A stretch of DNA of 64,000 bases, from positions 248,001-312,000 of the forward strand of contig NZ_PVBT01000006.1 in NCBI RefSeq assembly GCF_002980555.1, written 5' to 3'. This document shows, piece by piece, positions 50,132-61,197 of this stretch. Under the pieces are notes generated by a model. That model was not told where the DNA came from, did not search any database, and saw only the letters and a program-made list of their open reading frames with translations. Origin of the DNA: Phyllobacterium myrsinacearum. GTDB lineage: Bacteria > Pseudomonadota > Alphaproteobacteria > Rhizobiales > Rhizobiaceae. Position numbers and translations under genes: made by a program. How positions within the stretch are numbered: position 1 is the first letter of the stretch; each line of letters starts with the position of its first letter.

Positions 50132-50752
50132 ATGGCGCGAACAATCGGCTCAGACGGCGAAAAGACTCAGGCAGCGATTCATACCGCGGCACGGCGGCTG
50201 ATTGCCAAGGTGGGTTATGAGGCCATGTCGATGCGCCAGCTGGCGGAGAAAGTCGGCGTGCAGCCTGCCGCCCTCTACCGCTATCACCCCACCAAGCAGG
50301 ACCTGCTCTTTGCCGTGATGCGCGACCACATGGACCGGCTGCTGGCGGCCTGGCAGGCCGAAAGCCGGGACGTGACAGTGCCGCTCGAACGTCTTGCCGC
50401 CTTCATCCGCTTTCACATCCGCTACCATGTGGAGCGCCGCGACGATGTACACATTGCCAATATGGAACTGCGCAGCCTGCAGGGGATGAAGCTGGCCATA
50501 CTGGTGGCGCTGCGGGCGGTCTATGAGAACGAGCTGCGGCTGATCCTCGAGGCGGGCAGCACATCCGGTCAATTCGATATCGACGATATTCCGCTGACGA
50601 CCCGGGCCATCATCGCCATGACCACCGGGGTGAATGTCTGGTTTCGCCCGGACGACAGGCTTACTGTCACGCAGATTGCGGAAAAATACGTCACTATGGG
50701 ATTGCGCCTTGTGGGCGCCAAGAACTTCACGACAAAGGACATGGGAGATTAG
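50132..50752 (+). CDS. TetR-family regulator of the leucine-catabolic operon (LiuQ-like role)
   Basis: 206 residues. The HTH is [41 protein letters not shown]. The C-terminal domain ([29 protein letters not shown]) is TetR_C_41-like. It ends one base before the isovaleryl-CoA dehydrogenase start region, so it is the first gene of the operon it probably controls. TetR proteins called LiuQ regulate leucine genes in other proteobacteria. The likely effector is a branched acyl-CoA, by analogy. Confidence 0.85.
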
Positions 50753-50753
50753 G

Positions 50754-51917
50754 ATGTATCAGTCAGGTCTGCGATTTGGACTTTCGGACGATCTTGAAGC
50801 GCTGCGCGAGACAGTGCACCGGTTCGCGCAGGAACGCATTGCGCCGCTTGCCGCCGAAACCGACCGGTCCAACCAGTTCCCCATGCATCTCTGGCAGGAA
50901 ATGGGCGCGCTCGGCCTGCTCGGCATGACGGCAAACCCGGATTTCGGCGGCTCGGGCCTCGGCTATCTCGCCCATGCCATTGCCGTGGAGGAGATTTCCC
51001 GCGCATCGGCGTCCGTCGGCCTGTCCTACGGCGCGCATTCCAACCTCTGCGTGAACCAGATCAACCGCTGGGGCACGGACGCGCAGAAGGCGAAATACCT
51101 GCCAAAGCTGTGTTCGGGCGAGCATGTGGGGTCACTCGCCATGTCCGAACCCGGTGCCGGTTCCGATGTCGTGTCGATGAAGCTGCGGGCCGACAAGAAG
51201 AATGACCGCTATGTGCTGAACGGCAACAAGATGTGGATCACCAACGGTCCCGATGCCGATACGCTTGTCGTCTACGCCAAGACCGATCCCGCCGCCGGAT
51301 CGCGCGGCATGACGGCGTTTCTGGTCGAGAAAGGCGTCAAGGGTTTTAGCACGGCGCAAAAGCTCGACAAGCTCGGCATGCGCGGCTCCAACACCTGCGA
51401 ACTGGTGTTCGAGGATTGCGAGATCCCGTTCGAGAACGTGCTCGGCGAAGAGGGCAAGGGCGTGCGCATCCTCATGTCCGGCCTCGATTATGAACGGGTC
51501 GTGCTCGCCGGCGGTCCGCTCGGCATCATGGCCGCCTGCCTCGATGTGGTGGTGCCCTATGTGCATGAGCGCAAGCAGTTCGGCCAGCCGATCGGCGAAT
51601 TCCAGCTGATGCAGGGCAAGCTTGCCGACATGTACACGACGATGAATGCCTCGCGCGCCTATGTCTATGCGGTTGCTGCGGCCTGCGACCGCGGCGAGAC
51701 CACACGCAAGGATGCGGCCGGCTGCATTCTCTATGCGGCTGAGAAGGCCACCTGGTGTGCGCTCGAAGCCATCCAGGCGCTCGGCGGCAATGGCTACATC
51801 AATGATTACCCGACCGGACGGCTGCTGCGCGACGCCAAACTTTACGAAATCGGCGCGGGCACCAGTGAAATCCGCCGCATGCTGATCGGGCGCGAAATGT
51901 TCGGGGAGAGCGCGTGA
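50754..51917 (+). CDS. liuA: Isovaleryl-CoA dehydrogenase
   Basis: 387 residues, full length for the acyl-CoA dehydrogenase fold. FAD-binding loops SEPGAGSDV and WITNGPDAD are present. The catalytic base is Glu247 in [13 protein letters not shown], the isovaleryl-specific position in this family (human Glu254), rather than the C-terminal Glu of other acyl-CoA dehydrogenases. It oxidises isovaleryl-CoA to 3-methylcrotonyl-CoA. AGG and a 3-base gap separate it from the TetR stop. Downstream, a toxin-antitoxin pair interrupts the usual link to mccB. Confidence 0.93.
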
Positions 51918-51947
51918 ATGGCATGAATTCTATTTTATGTCATTCTT

Positions 51948-51991
51948 TGGTAGAATTGCCATGTTTTATGAATGATGGCAGATTTCTGCCA
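51948..51991 (+). promoter_or_regulatory. Two palindromes upstream of the antitoxin gene (autoregulatory operator candidates)
   Basis: TGGTAGAATTGCCA (51948-51961) is an imperfect palindrome, and TGGCAGATTTCTGCCA (51976-51991) has perfect 7-base arms TGGCAGA/TCTGCCA. They lie 25-68 bases before the antitoxin ATG in an AT-rich insert between the dehydrogenase and the antitoxin. Shared TGGYA/TGCCA half-sites suggest one regulator, most simply the AbrB-type antitoxin. Confidence 0.6.
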
Positions 51992-52015
51992 TTGTTCTCA
52001 AAAAGGTCTTCAACA

Positions 52016-52405
52016 ATGGCACGCAAGAAGAATGAAGGTTTCCGTGAGGAACCGCAAGCGTTTGACCACGATGCCGACACCTCAAAGGCACCGTTTTCCT
52101 GGGCTGTGACAGCGACGATAGGTGATGGCGGCCGATTGGTTATCCCGGCCGAGATGCGCAAGCTCATGGATGTGAAGCCGGGCGACACCGTCGCCCTGCG
52201 CATGGTCGATGGTTATCTTCAGGTTGCCTCACAGAGTGCGACGTTGAAAAAGATCTGGGAGAGCGCCGAAAAGCTCAAAAGACCGGGTGTCAGCCTGGTG
52301 GATGAATTCATTGCGGATAGACTGGCCGAACAACGTGCATCCGATGCGCGGTTTGACCGGCTGGCACGCGAAGCTGCTGAAATTGGCAAGGCGCAGAAGA
52401 AATGA
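52016..52405 (+). CDS. AbrB/MazE-type antitoxin (VapB)
   Basis: 129 residues from ATG 52016. The central SpoVT/AbrB swapped-hairpin is AVTATIGDGGRLVIPAEMRKLMDVKPGDTVALRMVDG YLQV (about residues 35-75). The N-terminal 30 residues are charged and unusual, and the C-terminal 45 residues (EFIADRLAEQRASDARFDRLAREAAEI) would wrap the toxin. The stop overlaps the toxin start by four bases. It most likely represses its own promoter through the palindromes upstream. Confidence 0.85.
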   Translation: MARKKNEGFREEPQAFDHDADTSKAPFSWAVTATIGDGGRLVIPAEMRKLMDVKPGDTVALRMVDGYLQVASQSATLKKIWESAEKLKRPGVSLVDEFIADRLAEQRASDARFDRLAREAAEIGKAQKK

Positions 52406-52785
52406 CCACGGTGGTGCTTGATGCCTCGGCGGTGCTGGCGGTTCTTCTGCAGGAGCCAGGGGCGGAGCGCGCGCACGCCTGCCTTTCCGGTGCGCTCTGC
52501 ACGACTGTCAACCTGGCAGAGATCTTGGCCGCCTGTGCCGACAAGGGGCTTTCTCTCACGGTTCCCGATGCACTGATGACCGGACACAGTGTCCGGTATG
52601 TTGATTTCGACAAGGATCTCGCGCTGACCGCCGCATTGCTCCGTCCGGCAACCCGTCACAAGGGTCTTTCGCTCGGCGACCGTGCCTGCCTTGCTCTTGC
52701 CATACGGGAAGGCGCCACTGCCATCACCACCGACCGCGCCTGGGCTGACCTTGATGTCGGCTGCCACATCGAAGTGATCCGATAG
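52402..52785 (+). CDS. VapC-type PIN-domain toxin
   Basis: 127 residues, the normal VapC size. The acidic metal-binding residues are Asp7 ([11 protein letters not shown]), Glu40 (VNLAEIL), Asp93 ([12 protein letters not shown]) and Asp111 (TTDRAWADL), all in place, so it should be an active endoribonuclease. VapC toxins usually cut initiator tRNA or rRNA. Its stop is 8 bases before mccB and the mccB ribosome-binding site overlaps the end of the toxin gene, so the pair is embedded in the leucine operon. Confidence 0.9.
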
Positions 52786-52793
52786 GAGAATAC

Positions 52794-54401
<1,608 letters not shown>

Positions 54402-54411
54402 GGAGAAAACC

Positions 54412-56430
54412 ATGACAAAAATGTTCTCCAGAATCCTCATTGCCAATCGCGGTGAAATTGCCTGCCGGGTCATCCGCACGGCACAGAAGATGGGCATCGG
54501 CACCGTCGCCGTCTATTCCGACGCCGATGCCGATGCGCTGCATGTGGCGATGGCCGACGAGGCCGTGCATATCGGCGGCTCCTCCGTATCGGATAGCTAT
54601 CTGCGCGCCGACCGCATCATTCAGGCGGCCATCGATACGGGCGCCGAAGCCATTCATCCCGGCTATGGATTCCTGTCGGAAAACCCCGGCTTTGTCGATG
54701 CCGTGGTCAAGGCCGGCCTCGTCTTCATCGGTCCCTCGGCGGATTCCATCCGTGCCATGGGCTTGAAGGATGCTGCCAAGCGGCTGATGGAAAAGGCTGG
54801 CGTGCCTGTCGTTCCCGGCTATCACGGCGAAGCGCAGGAACTGGTCGTGCTCGCCTCCAAGGCGCGCGAGATCGGCTATCCCGTGCTGATCAAGGCGCGG
54901 GCGGGCGGCGGCGGCAAGGGCATGCGCAAGGTCGACAGCCCCGATGATTTCGCCGAGGCGCTGGGCAGCGCGCGGCGCGAAGCCAAGAGCGCTTTTGGCG
55001 ACGACCGGGTGCTGGTGGAAAAATACGTCGCCAAGCCGCGCCATATCGAAGTGCAGGTGTTCGGCGACAATCACGGCAATGCGGTGCATCTCTACGAGCG
55101 CGACTGCTCGCTGCAGCGCCGCCACCAGAAGGTGATCGAGGAAGCCCCTGCTCCCGACATCACGCCGGAGATGCGCGCGGCGATGACCGATGCTGCCGTG
55201 AAGGCGGCCAAGGCCATCCACTATTCCGGCGCGGGCACGATCGAGTTCATCGTCGATGCCAGTCAGGGGCTGCGCCCGGACGGTTTCTGGTTCATGGAAA
55301 TGAACACGCGCCTGCAGGTCGAGCATCCCGTGACCGAAATGATCACCGGGCTTGATCTGGTGGAATGGCAGTTGCGCGTGGCGGCAGGCGAACCCCTGCC
55401 GCTGACGCAGGCGCAGATTCCGCTGAATGGCCATGCCGTCGAAGCACGGCTTTATGCGGAAGACCCGGCCAAGGGCTTTCTGCCGGCCATCGGCACGCTG
55501 CATCACCTCACCTTCCCCGCCGCTGTCCGAGAAGGTACGGTGCGCATCGAAACCGGCGTTCGTCCGGGCGATACCATTTCCCCCTATTACGATCCGATGA
55601 TTGCCAAGATCGTCGTCCACGCGAACGATCGTGCGAGCGCCCTGCGTGCCATGGAAGATGCCCTCCTGCACACGGAGATTGCCGGAACGGTCACCAATGC
55701 GGCGTTTCTGGCCGCACTGGCACGCCATCCGGGCTTTGCCGCCGGGGATGTCGATACAGGGTTGATCGACCGCGACCTTCACAGCCTTGTCGTTCCCGTG
55801 GCCATGCCCGCGGGCGCCCGGGAATTGGCCGTGCTTTATGCCAGCGGCCTCCTGACAAAGGTCGTCTCCGACGATCCCTGGACAGCCCTGCGCGGCTACA
55901 GCCATCTCGCGCCATCGCAATATCCGGTGACGCTGGGCGAGCCCGGCCATATCACCCGCTATGGCATTGCGGTTCTGGGCGATGACCGTTTCGAGGTCAC
56001 CGCGCCCGATGACACCCTTGACCTGCGGGTCCGGCGCGATGGGAATGGCTGGCATATCACCGGCAAGGGCATCAACCTGCGCGCGAAAACCGCTGCAATC
56101 CCGCAAGGCATCGCAATCATCGCCAGGGGCGTCGTGGCAACCTTCGCGGTGCCGGATCCCCTGCAGCAGGCCGAAGAGGCGGGCGGCGCGGGCGACCGGC
56201 TGACCGCACCCATGCCGGGTCTGGTGAAATCCGTCCGGGTCTCCGCCGGCGATCTCGTCAAGAAGGGGCAGGTTCTCCTGGTGCTGGAGGCCATGAAAAT
56301 GGAACACTCCATCACCGCCCCGCATGACGGCAGGATCGCCGAGATCGTCAGCGAGGGATCGCAGGTCAAGGAGAAGACAGCCCTTGTCCGCTTTGAAGAG
56401 ACGGAAGCTGCCGTGTTGACCAAGATTTGA
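54412..56430 (+). CDS. mccA: 3-Methylcrotonyl-CoA carboxylase, biotin-containing (alpha) subunit
   Basis: 672 residues: biotin carboxylase domain with ATP-grasp loop GGGGKGMRKV and EMNTRLQVEHPVTEMITG, then a linker and C-terminal biotinyl domain with LVLEAMKMEHS (biotin-Lys at about residue 629). It carboxylates its own biotin with ATP and bicarbonate. The ATG at 54412 follows AAGGAGAAAACC. The next pathway genes (3-methylglutaconyl-CoA hydratase, HMG-CoA lyase) are not in the window. Confidence 0.95.
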   Translation: MTKMFSRILIANRGEIACRVIRTAQKMGIGTVAVYSDADADALHVAMADEAVHIGGSSVSDSYLRADRIIQAAIDTGAEAIHPGYGFLSENPGFVDAVVKAGLVFIGPSADSIRAMGLKDAAKRLMEKAGVPVVPGYHGEAQELVVLASKAREIGYPVLIKARAGGGGKGMRKVDSPDDFAEALGSARREAKSAFGDDRVLVEKYVAKPRHIEVQVFGDNHGNAVHLYERDCSLQRRHQKVIEEAPAPDITPEMRAAMTDAAVKAAKAIHYSGAGTIEFIVDASQGLRPDGFWFMEMNTRLQVEHPVTEMITGLDLVEWQLRVAAGEPLPLTQAQIPLNGHAVEARLYAEDPAKGFLPAIGTLHHLTFPAAVREGTVRIETGVRPGDTISPYYDPMIAKIVVHANDRASALRAMEDALLHTEIAGTVTNAAFLAALARHPGFAAGDVDTGLIDRDLHSLVVPVAMPAGARELAVLYASGLLTKVVSDDPWTALRGYSHLAPSQYPVTLGEPGHITRYGIAVLGDDRFEVTAPDDTLDLRVRRDGNGWHITGKGINLRAKTAAIPQGIAIIARGVVATFAVPDPLQQAEEAGGAGDRLTAPMPGLVKSVRVSAGDLVKKGQVLLVLEAMKMEHSITAPHDGRIAEIVSEGSQVKEKTALVRFEETEAAVLTKI

Positions 56431-56532
56431 AGCAGAAATGACAAACAGTCGTGTTAGTCGTATATCTGTAACCAGCACCAGCCGCCTACTCAAGTCGCAG
56501 GAATTTCCCGTTCACAGCAGAGGAGATCGACC

Positions 56533-57060
56533 ATGGCTACCAAATCACTGCAGACGATCAAACGCGCGCCCACCGCAACCCCCAGTGACCTCGGAGCAGA
56601 GGCAACCCGTGACATCGCAGCCGCCGTCAACGCGCTGCTTGCCGATACATTCGCCCTCTATCTGAAGACGAAGAATTTCCATTGGCACATGAGCGGCCCG
56701 CATTTCCGCGACTACCATCTGCTGCTGGACGAACAGGCCGCGCAGATTTTTGACATGACCGATGTCCTGGCCGAGCGCGTGCGCAAGATCGGCGGGACAA
56801 CCCTGCGTTCCATCGGGCAGATTTCCGCCCAGCAGCGCCTGCTCGACAATGACGCCAATTTCGTCACGCCGGAGGACATGCTGGCCGAGCTGCGCGACGA
56901 TACCAAGAGTTTCATCGGCTATCTGCGCCAGGTGCACGAGCTTTGCAGCGACTACCATGACAGTGCCACAACCAGCATCATCGAGAATTACATCGATGAA
57001 TCCGAGCGCCGCCACTGGTTCCTGTTCGAAGCAACCCGCACGGGTCCCGCCAGCGTCTGA
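56533..57060 (+). CDS. dps: Dps-family ferritin-like DNA-protection protein
   Basis: 175 residues. The ferroxidase motif KTKNFHWHMSGPHFRDYHLLLDEQ is intact, giving the inter-subunit His/Asp/Glu iron site. A basic N-terminal tail (MATKSLQTIKRAPTATP) may bind DNA. It forms a 12-mer that stores iron and protects DNA from peroxide. AGAGGAGA precedes the ATG. A 17-base-arm hairpin lies 77 bases downstream. Confidence 0.95.
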   Translation: MATKSLQTIKRAPTATPSDLGAEATRDIAAAVNALLADTFALYLKTKNFHWHMSGPHFRDYHLLLDEQAAQIFDMTDVLAERVRKIGGTTLRSIGQISAQQRLLDNDANFVTPEDMLAELRDDTKSFIGYLRQVHELCSDYHDSATTSIIENYIDESERRHWFLFEATRTGPASV

Positions 57061-60312: not shown

Positions 60313-61197
60313 TCAGATATGGTCCGCAACGAGGCGCGCCACCTTCTGATGAATGAGGTTGCGGCTGTCCGGCGTCCCCTTGGGATCATAGAGATAGACG
60401 GTCAGCACAATGGGCTTGCGATCAGGCGGCCAGATCACCGCAACGTCATTGGCCATGCCGCTGTCGCTGGTTCCAGTCTTGTCGCCGACCTTCCAGTCTT
60501 TTGGCAGCCCTGCCCGCAGACGCTTGTCACCAACCTTGTTGCCGACCAGCCAATCGGTGAGCTGCTTGCGCGACGGTTCCGACAGGGCGGTCCCGAGAAC
60601 GGTCTTTTCCAGATTTTCACGCATGGCGGCGGGCGTCGTTGTATCTCTCGGATCGCCGGGTTTGGCTTCATTGAGTTCAGGCTCGCGCCGGTCCAGCCGG
60701 CTGATCGTATCACCCAGACTGCGCGCATAATCCGTCATCCCCTGCGATCCGCCCAGCGCATCGAGCATCAGGTTTCCAGCAGCATTGTCGCTCCAGGTGA
60801 TGGCCGCCTCGCAAATAGCCGAAAGCGTCATGCCGTCGGCCACATGCTTTTCGGTAACGGGTGAATAGGTCACAAGATCGGACTTCCCATATCGGATGAC
60901 CCGGTCGAGTTTCTCCTTCTTCTGATCCACCCGTGAAAGAATGGCAGCGGCGGCAAAGAACTTGAACGTGCTGCACATGGCAAACAACTCTTTCTCGCGG
61001 TAGCCGATGCGTTTACCGCTGCCCGTATCGTGCACCGAAACCCCAAGGCGCGCACCGCTTGCCTTCTCCAGGTCTTTGAACGCGGTTTCGAAATCCCATT
61101 CCTGCGCCGCGCCGGCCGACCTGATCGGCAGCGACAGAGCCGGAACAACCAGCATCGACCCAACAAGTGCAGCGCGGCGTGTAATATGACCTGACAT
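60313..61197 (-). CDS. Class A beta-lactamase
   Basis: 294 residues. A twin-arginine-like signal ITRRAALVGSMLVVPALSLP precedes the mature enzyme. All class A motifs are present: S76-TFK in MCSTFKF (Ambler 70-73), SDN at 136-138, EPELN with Glu172 (Ambler 166) and KTGT at 240-243. So it should hydrolyse beta-lactams. The residue after KTGT is Ser, not Cys, so the carbapenemase disulfide with the Cys before the active Ser is absent. No AmpR-type regulator is adjacent; it is probably chromosomal and intrinsic. Confidence 0.93.
   Translation of the reverse strand: MSGHITRRAALVGSMLVVPALSLPIRSAGAAQEWDFETAFKDLEKASGARLGVSVHDTGSGKRIGYREKELFAMCSTFKFFAAAAILSRVDQKKEKLDRVIRYGKSDLVTYSPVTEKHVADGMTLSAICEAAITWSDNAAGNLMLDALGGSQGMTDYARSLGDTISRLDRREPELNEAKPGDPRDTTTPAAMRENLEKTVLGTALSEPSRKQLTDWLVGNKVGDKRLRAGLPKDWKVGDKTGTSDSGMANDVAVIWPPDRKPIVLTVYLYDPKGTPDSRNLIHQKVARLVADHI

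Follow-up and report, generated by a model that had tools for sequence, protein, structure and literature searches.

Why chromosomal toxin–antitoxin (TA) pairs persist is an old open question, the candidate answers being a useful function, selfish maintenance or the polar effects of their removal. It is considered here for a VapBC-type pair, an AbrB/MazE-type antitoxin (VapB) followed by a PIN-domain toxin (VapC), lying between the genes for isovaleryl-CoA dehydrogenase (IVD) and a methylcrotonyl-CoA carboxylase subunit (mccB) in the leucine catabolic (liu) operon of Phyllobacterium myrsinacearum, Rhizobiaceae. The window analysed is a stretch of 64,000 nucleotides (contig NZ_PVBT01000006.1, positions 248,001 to 312,000) of a 5.44-Mb genome in 44 contigs (G000). 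One of the closest described counterparts is the VapBC complex of Shigella flexneri, described as binding two operator sites that overlap the -10 and -35 elements (PMC3384007). As far as that account goes, the two systems share the PIN toxin fold, a SpoVT/AbrB-type DNA-binding antitoxin and, with the window's being putative, operator sites at -10 and -35; however, fold alignments are only 17-18% identical to the S. flexneri chains, the AbrB domain given there as within the first 45 residues begins at about residue 32 of the window's antitoxin, and the window's sites are TGSCA pentamers 18-19 bp apart in a catabolic operon, where mccB comes next without a terminator-like site.

The relBEF, mazEFG and yafNOP loci of Escherichia coli are presented as autoregulated and terminator-less, with a downstream gene that is cotranscribed, or argued to be so, and with polar effects (PMC5120126). 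The present locus would be similar in autoregulation, in the lack of a terminator and in a downstream gene open to polar effects, but here the genes on both sides of the pair belong to a catabolic operon that is otherwise contiguous, and the ribosome-binding site of the next gene shares bases with the toxin stop. In Thermus thermophilus, an MNT-HEPN module is reported in the lysine biosynthesis operon of strain HB8 and not of HB27 (PMC2701414). Both cases, so far as the Thermus account describes its own, concern a TA-like module in a metabolic operon whose presence varies between close relatives; that comparison covers two strains and another toxin family, whereas the site described here contains a pair in 49 of 158 loci and shows both exchange and decay. 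Sinorhizobium meliloti NtrPR/VapBC modules are linked to nitrogen metabolism. NtrPR and other modules of this species, as introduced in PMC10945364, are likewise VapBC-type and of the Rhizobiaceae, but its liu locus (one strain) has no pair. On these accounts, a TA pair influencing a downstream gene and a TA-like module in a metabolic operon are already known. In the open-licence PubMed Central literature, judged by title, term counts and the start of the abstract, no report was found of a VapBC in a leucine catabolic operon, and no earlier report was met of a recurrent liu site, of its promoter–operator pattern, of pair exchange or of a retained toxin tail.

The comparison presented below suggests that the window's pair is probably an autoregulated chromosomal type II VapBC, resident in the liu operon and with read-through into mccBA, that mainly maintains itself and does not serve as a dedicated leucine regulator. 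One type of pair is met again and again at the same catabolic-operon junction, in dozens of species; within a single genus, occupied, swapped, decayed and empty sites occur together, a natural experiment that can separate polar-effect from addiction explanations, and the promoter–operator pattern offers a ready binding target.

Distribution of the pair at the IVD–mccB junction

The survey comprised 21 Phyllobacterium loci (the genus being represented by 21 genomes) and 140 regions fetched from the family, mostly the top IVD matches listed (matches came from 231 of 297 genomes), some of which were passed over. In 158 loci both IVD and mccB could be identified, 21 from Phyllobacterium and 137 from the rest of the family, after L209 (no IVD) and L101 and L192 (no mccB in the fetched stretch) had been dropped. 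A VapBC pair lies between the two genes in 49 of the 158 loci, 6/21 in Phyllobacterium and 43/137 elsewhere in the family, the latter count becoming 39/128 when L201-L210, chosen partly for an mccB or toxin/antitoxin match, are excluded. The remaining 109 loci have no intact pair, a locus with antitoxin and no toxin (L073) and those with toxin remnants being counted among them. Both the presence and the absence of the pair, which the sequence-only reading had proposed to look for in related genomes, were thus seen, and the usual liu order without a pair does exist, in one S. meliloti record with an IVD–mccB gap of 27 bp. Where present, the pairs have the same order and orientation and mostly the same junction.

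The association is also seen from the side of the pair. The antitoxin has a match in 71 of the 297 family genomes, its own included, and 28 of the best 29 antitoxin loci outside its own genome (L010-L038) show IVD and/or mccB in the short flank; the exception, L036, still lies between the two genes, at distances of about 3 kb and 2.5 kb (seen in L193, from the same genome). Among the best 80 named VapC relatives listed, which were ranked by likeness to the window's toxin so that the liu kind is favoured, 39 adjoin IVD or mccB. Named examples come from Pararhizobium qamdonense plasmid p2, Aminobacter, Mesorhizobium, Nitratireductor, Aquibium, Hoeflea and Aurantimonas, and the liu-linked relatives include metagenome-assembled genomes (MAGs) labelled Rhodobacteraceae, Paracoccaceae, Bradyrhizobiaceae and Betaproteobacteria. 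In several of these relatives the gene after the toxin is not mccB, encoding instead a peptidase (L260), an aldo/keto reductase (L266) or a helix-turn-helix protein (L274). The nearest VapCs of 104 plasmid records are nearly all less than 60% identical; among the 40 plasmid records listed, the one examined, from P. qamdonense, has its VapC in liu. Six plasmid records matched the antitoxin, none over more than 80% of its length.

Within Phyllobacterium, two named species carry a pair more than 90% identical to that of the window at the same junction, and three further species hold divergent pairs. These pairs, together with remnants and the wider occurrence, led us to reject a recent insertion private to P. 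myrsinacearum and without a history; four genomes of the genus without an antitoxin match would fit such an event, which nonetheless appears vanishingly improbable.

The IVD–mccB gap is also a more general insertion spot. Its length ranges from -4 to 6460 bp, and 30 mechanically called open reading frames (ORFs) from such gaps include HicB-like antitoxin, Fic, trypsin-like, PcfJ-like and FMN-reductase proteins. Both observations would suit an explanation in which VapBC is one of many cargoes of an insertion-tolerant gap and its link to liu is a by-catch of homologous recombination in the conserved flanks. We consider this unlikely as the whole account, because one VapBC group fills 49/158 gaps, with gene order and orientation constant and the junction mostly so, because 39 of the best 80 VapC relatives listed lie by liu genes, and because the promoter–operator described below accompanies the VapBC pairs.

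Some gaps have a content of their own. L173 (G195) contains two different VapBC pairs, separated by about 2.6 kb that include a SnoaL-like ORF; the locus also has an ORF from the BLAST cluster of a PcfJ-like one. In the Phyllobacterium loci L045 and L047 the gap is filled by a related gene instead of the pair, with a weak DUF1444 match (L045) and, by eye, a signal-peptide-like start.

Exchange, loss and remnants

The history of the pair at this junction looks like one of recurrent occupation, exchange and loss and not like a one-off insertion. Pair and host distances are correlated (Mantel r 0.43, reached in 0 of 5000 permutations) and 6 of 46 splits are shared between the two trees (permutation maximum 3); however, 16 of the 24 pair splits with good support are at odds with well-supported splits of the host tree, so that strict vertical descent from one ancestor was rejected as the whole story. 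In L049 and L050, from sister Phyllobacterium (Shimodaira–Hasegawa-like approximate likelihood ratio support 99), the pairs belong to different clades, the toxin of L050 grouping with that of the window (98) and the toxin of L049 with those of other genera (99), and both lie at the same 8-bp junction. Divergence between the flanks of these two loci, in which a step marking the exchange tract was sought, rises towards the junction, and does likewise for L040 and L041. The pairs that replace each other at the site are about 45% identical.

L042 and L043, placed in the tree beside the three-species group of the window, have no pair and a 76-bp gap that still reads TGGCATTAT, which looks like the -10/operator half. 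Toxin-tail remnants were recognized by profile in L048, L051, L056, L130 and L194 and by eye in L059 and L179, and in all of these loci except L130 the remnant still forms the sequence immediately ahead of mccB; L073 keeps an antitoxin without this toxin. As for the possibility raised by the sequence-only reading that the gene order is ancestral and unregulated, the sequences did not point to an unregulated order, and in place of an ancestral one they suggest the turnover set out above.

The liu-linked VapCs cluster in the toxin tree, the label changing 10 times where shuffles average 35 (none of 500 was as low). Many independent origins of the linkage were not shown, since a tree holding all 89 liu-linked toxins together was not rejected (approximately unbiased test, p-AU 0.66); its likelihood was higher than that reached by the unconstrained quick search, although this is no proof of a clade.

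A conserved putative promoter–operator upstream of the antitoxin

The sequence-only reading had taken two palindromes upstream of the antitoxin for its operators. Inverted repeats are present there, but their score stands above shuffles in only 9 of the 49 homologous loci and is reached by 4 of 40 shuffles at the window's locus; generic palindromes were therefore rejected as the operator and replaced by a conserved period of TGSCA. Before the antitoxin, TGCCA/TGGCA pentamers number 115 in the 49 loci against a shuffle mean of 21, and the distances between them peak at 19 bp and at its multiples 38 and 57. Orientation hardly matters, since the reverse complement of TGSCA differs from it only in the middle base. 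Two sites 18 or 19 bp apart occur in 36/49 loci and in 24 of 35 representatives (loci below 70% toxin identity), for which shuffles give a mean of 0.12.

This spacing seems to be explained by the pair's promoter, as the sites coincide with its putative -35 and -10 elements (Table 1). The composite TTGSCA-N17-CANNNT is present in 31/49 loci and in 22/35 representatives (shuffle mean 0.07, maximum 1; the pattern having been picked after some sequences had been viewed, the shuffle figure expresses strength and is no blind test), 48-92 bp before the antitoxin start and nearly always at 51-62 bp. When TTGNCA and CATNNT were combined with spacers of 12-24 bp, 17 representatives matched at 17 bp, one at 16 bp and none at any other length.

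The pattern goes with the pair. Among the best 80 relatives listed, TGSCA pairs at 18/19 bp were found in 21/39 liu-linked named loci against 2/38 other VapBC relatives; the 49 gaps that contain VapBC have 68 such pairs, compared with 4 for the 109 pair-less gaps, and the hexamer TGCCAT/ATGGCA occurs in 5 of 77 pair-less control gaps. Both sites are kept in the two closest relatives. The rest of the window holds three more 18/19-bp TGSCA pairs among 206 sites, so a lone pair of sites is not rare by itself.

The toxin–mccB junction

The toxin of the window stops at TAG (52783-52785), followed by GAGAATAC and the mccB ATG. Direct reading bears out the earlier claim of an 8-base gap with the mccB ribosome-binding site over the toxin end, the Shine-Dalgarno core AGGAG beginning inside the stop codon. 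Over 50 toxins, the distance from the stop to mccB is -1 to 16 bp for 31; the toxin ends no more than 130 bp from mccB in 41, and in 9 it ends more than 400 bp before it. A Shine-Dalgarno-like core was recognized for 25 of the 30 toxins ending 0-16 bp before mccB and begins in the stop codon in 22 of them. TAG is the stop of 21/31 toxins near mccB and of 6/19 other toxins, compared with 9/49 IVD and 11/42 mccB genes in the same loci, as would be expected if the mccB ribosome-binding site constrains the toxin stop; yet 10/41 VapC relatives outside liu stop with TAG too. Tight spacing between toxin and next ORF characterizes 27 of 39 liu-linked relatives; as a general habit outside liu it was rejected, 18/41 against 747/2400 for random stop triplets being no clear excess.

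Between 49900 and 56700, 5 terminators were found where 5.3 were expected, none of them in the spacer ahead of the antitoxin or in that ahead of mccB; two plus-strand terminator-like sites lie inside the toxin gene. An isolating terminator before mccB, which would have told against the sequence-only reading, was thus not found in this interval. Given the conserved putative promoter, the lack of a terminator-like site and the ribosome-binding site over the toxin stop, it is plausible that a share of mccB expression comes from the pair promoter, in partial support of the dependence proposed in the sequence-only reading.

VapC relatives with other neighbours show close junctions of different kinds. 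In L261, L272 and L277 (Azospirillaceae), VapBC relatives extend 1-4 bp into the start of a RecF-like gene, and in L272 dnaN precedes the pair, placing VapBC between dnaN and recF. In all six of L225, L228, L237, L249, L275 and L281 (Caulobacter, Phenylobacterium and related MAGs), the distance from the end of a related VapC to a methyltransferase-domain gene is -4 to +3 bp, and in a Devosia MAG (L256:4387-6525) 2 bp lie between the end of such a VapC and glyS (glycyl-tRNA synthetase beta).

Self-maintenance or regulation of leucine catabolism

In the mechanism that we favour, the antitoxin or the antitoxin–toxin complex would bind the TGSCA sites and repress the pair promoter, and transcripts from this promoter and from the operon's own would both run into mccBA. 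Loss of the antitoxin would then raise mccBA, and with it the carboxylase, somewhat as a polar effect. The pair would persist mainly as an addiction-like module locked by its position, through self-maintenance and the cost of disturbing mccB, its influence on mccB being a side effect.

Several observations weigh against this interpretation. The putative -10 of the window, CAGATT, is weak (3/6 to consensus), and a generic promoter scan listed no plus-strand site at the putative promoter; 13 of the 49 loci are without an 18/19-bp TGSCA pair and 18 without the composite. Some pairs adjoin IVD or stand alone instead of adjoining mccB, 4 of 50 being near neither gene, and the Mantel correlation with the six shared splits indicates some vertical inheritance.

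It could be argued that the pair was recruited as a dedicated metabolic regulator that sets the ratio of mccBA to IVD, with stress that destroys the antitoxin raising the carboxylase. The clustering of liu-linked VapCs with one origin not rejected, the near confinement of paired TGSCA sites to liu-linked pairs and the overlap with the mccB ribosome-binding site are in keeping with such a role, as are the G055 pair, which stays by mccB although IVD is about 10 kb away, and the G004 pair, which is by mccB while IVD is on another contig. However, most sampled liu operons do without an intact pair, the near relatives L042 and L043 included; pairs of about 45% identity replace each other, nine toxins end far from mccB, and the operator travels with the pair, as the control gaps indicate. 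For want of the pair in most of the liu operons sampled, and given the loci without sites or composite and the poor -10, dedicated control of leucine use appears improbable. The conserved tie between leucine use and the state of the pair proposed in the sequence-only reading is likewise not supported, in view of the pair-less loci, the exchange against the host tree and the distant toxins.

The preferred reading of a mainly self-maintaining resident has a bolder form, which is possible though doubtful. In this form a VapBC lineage would hold the ribosome-binding site of its neighbour: its last codons would serve as the mccB Shine-Dalgarno and its autorepressed promoter would feed mccBA, so that a careless deletion would cost leucine catabolism, surviving deletions would keep the toxin tail, fresh pairs would replace old ones and the level of antitoxin would set part of the carboxylase supply.

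Locus architecture and protein features

The genes are arranged on the plus strand as TetR, IVD, antitoxin, toxin, mccB and mccA (Table 1), and coordinates and Pfam domains agree with the earlier description of a VapBC-type pair embedded in the leucine operon. Adjacent genes for a regulator, IVD and the methylcrotonyl-CoA carboxylase subunits, as predicted here, are features of a liu operon, and a PIN toxin with acidic active-site residues and a small, overlapping DNA-binding antitoxin gene directly upstream are those of VapBC. A TetR homologue lies upstream of IVD in many family loci, and the protein at the place of IVD in P. qamdonense p2 is annotated as isovaleryl-CoA dehydrogenase. Antitoxin and toxin genes overlap by 4 bp in the window and, by script, in 36 of 50 pairs, the script setting a few toxin starts too far in, the window's included.

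Table 1. Predicted features of the liu locus in the window.
Feature	Position	Strand	Evidence
TetR-family regulator	50132..50752	+	Pfam TetR_N 55.2 bits, TetR_C_24 91.1 bits; 1 bp before IVD
Isovaleryl-CoA dehydrogenase (IVD, liuA/ivd)	50754..51917	+	Acyl-CoA dehydrogenase domains well over cut-off
Putative operator sites TGSCA	51919, 51957, 51976 (span 51919..51980)		Spacing shared by homologous loci; 51938 reads TGTCA
Putative pair promoter	51956..51984	+	-35 TTGCCA 51956-51961, 17-bp spacer, -10 CAGATT 51979-51984
Off-period TGSCA sites	51987, 52017		Direct reading
AbrB/MazE-type antitoxin (VapB), 129 aa	52016..52405	+	Pfam MazE/AbrB (PF04014) 26.5 bits (cut-off 24.7), TIGR01439 over cut-off
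PIN-domain toxin (VapC), 127 aa	52402..52785	+	Pfam PIN 52.6 bits (cut-off 23.6)
mccB Shine-Dalgarno AGGAGA	52784..52789	+	Begins in toxin stop codon; direct reading
mccB (liuB), methylcrotonyl-CoA carboxylase carboxyltransferase subunit	52794..54401	+	Pfam Carboxyl_trans 517 bits
mccA (liuD), methylcrotonyl-CoA carboxylase biotin subunit	54412..56430	+	Pfam biotin carboxylase and biotinyl domains, well over cut-off

Residues D7, E40, D93 and D111 of the toxin, which we take to be the catalytic set, are invariant in an alignment of 33 sequences, D111 being nearly invariant in a wider one of 46 rows. The structure model of the toxin is confident (predicted local distance difference test 96.7), and its best fold matches in the Protein Data Bank (PDB) are VapC chains from Shigella and mycobacteria, the top Foldseek match being 5ecw (S. 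flexneri, E 1.2e-6), so the model suggests a VapC fold; the toxin profile had no match among PDB sequences at 1e-3. The PDB chains matched by the antitoxin profile (alignment A2, 29 sequences) are of the AbrB/SpoVT kind. In comparisons of the three closest species, ratios of nonsynonymous to synonymous substitution are 0.06-0.13 for the toxin and 0.07-0.11 for the antitoxin, against 0-0.01 for IVD and 0.03-0.05 for the compared part of mccB, from which both proteins are estimated to be under purifying selection, weaker than that on IVD and this part of mccB.

Genes for 3-hydroxy-3-methylglutaryl-CoA (HMG-CoA) lyase and enoyl-CoA hydratase follow mccA in P. qamdonense and S. meliloti. In the window (54412-57060) no HMG-CoA lyase gene follows mccA, the next gene reading by eye like that of a Dps protein; neither of the two enzymes is strictly required in the cluster of a liu operon. 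As a search of the source genome (E <= 1e-30) gave a single match for this enzyme, 34% identical and on another contig, the last part of leucine breakdown may be different in P. myrsinacearum. Further along the window, an ORF on the minus strand (60313-61197) resembles, by eye from its translation, a class A beta-lactamase.

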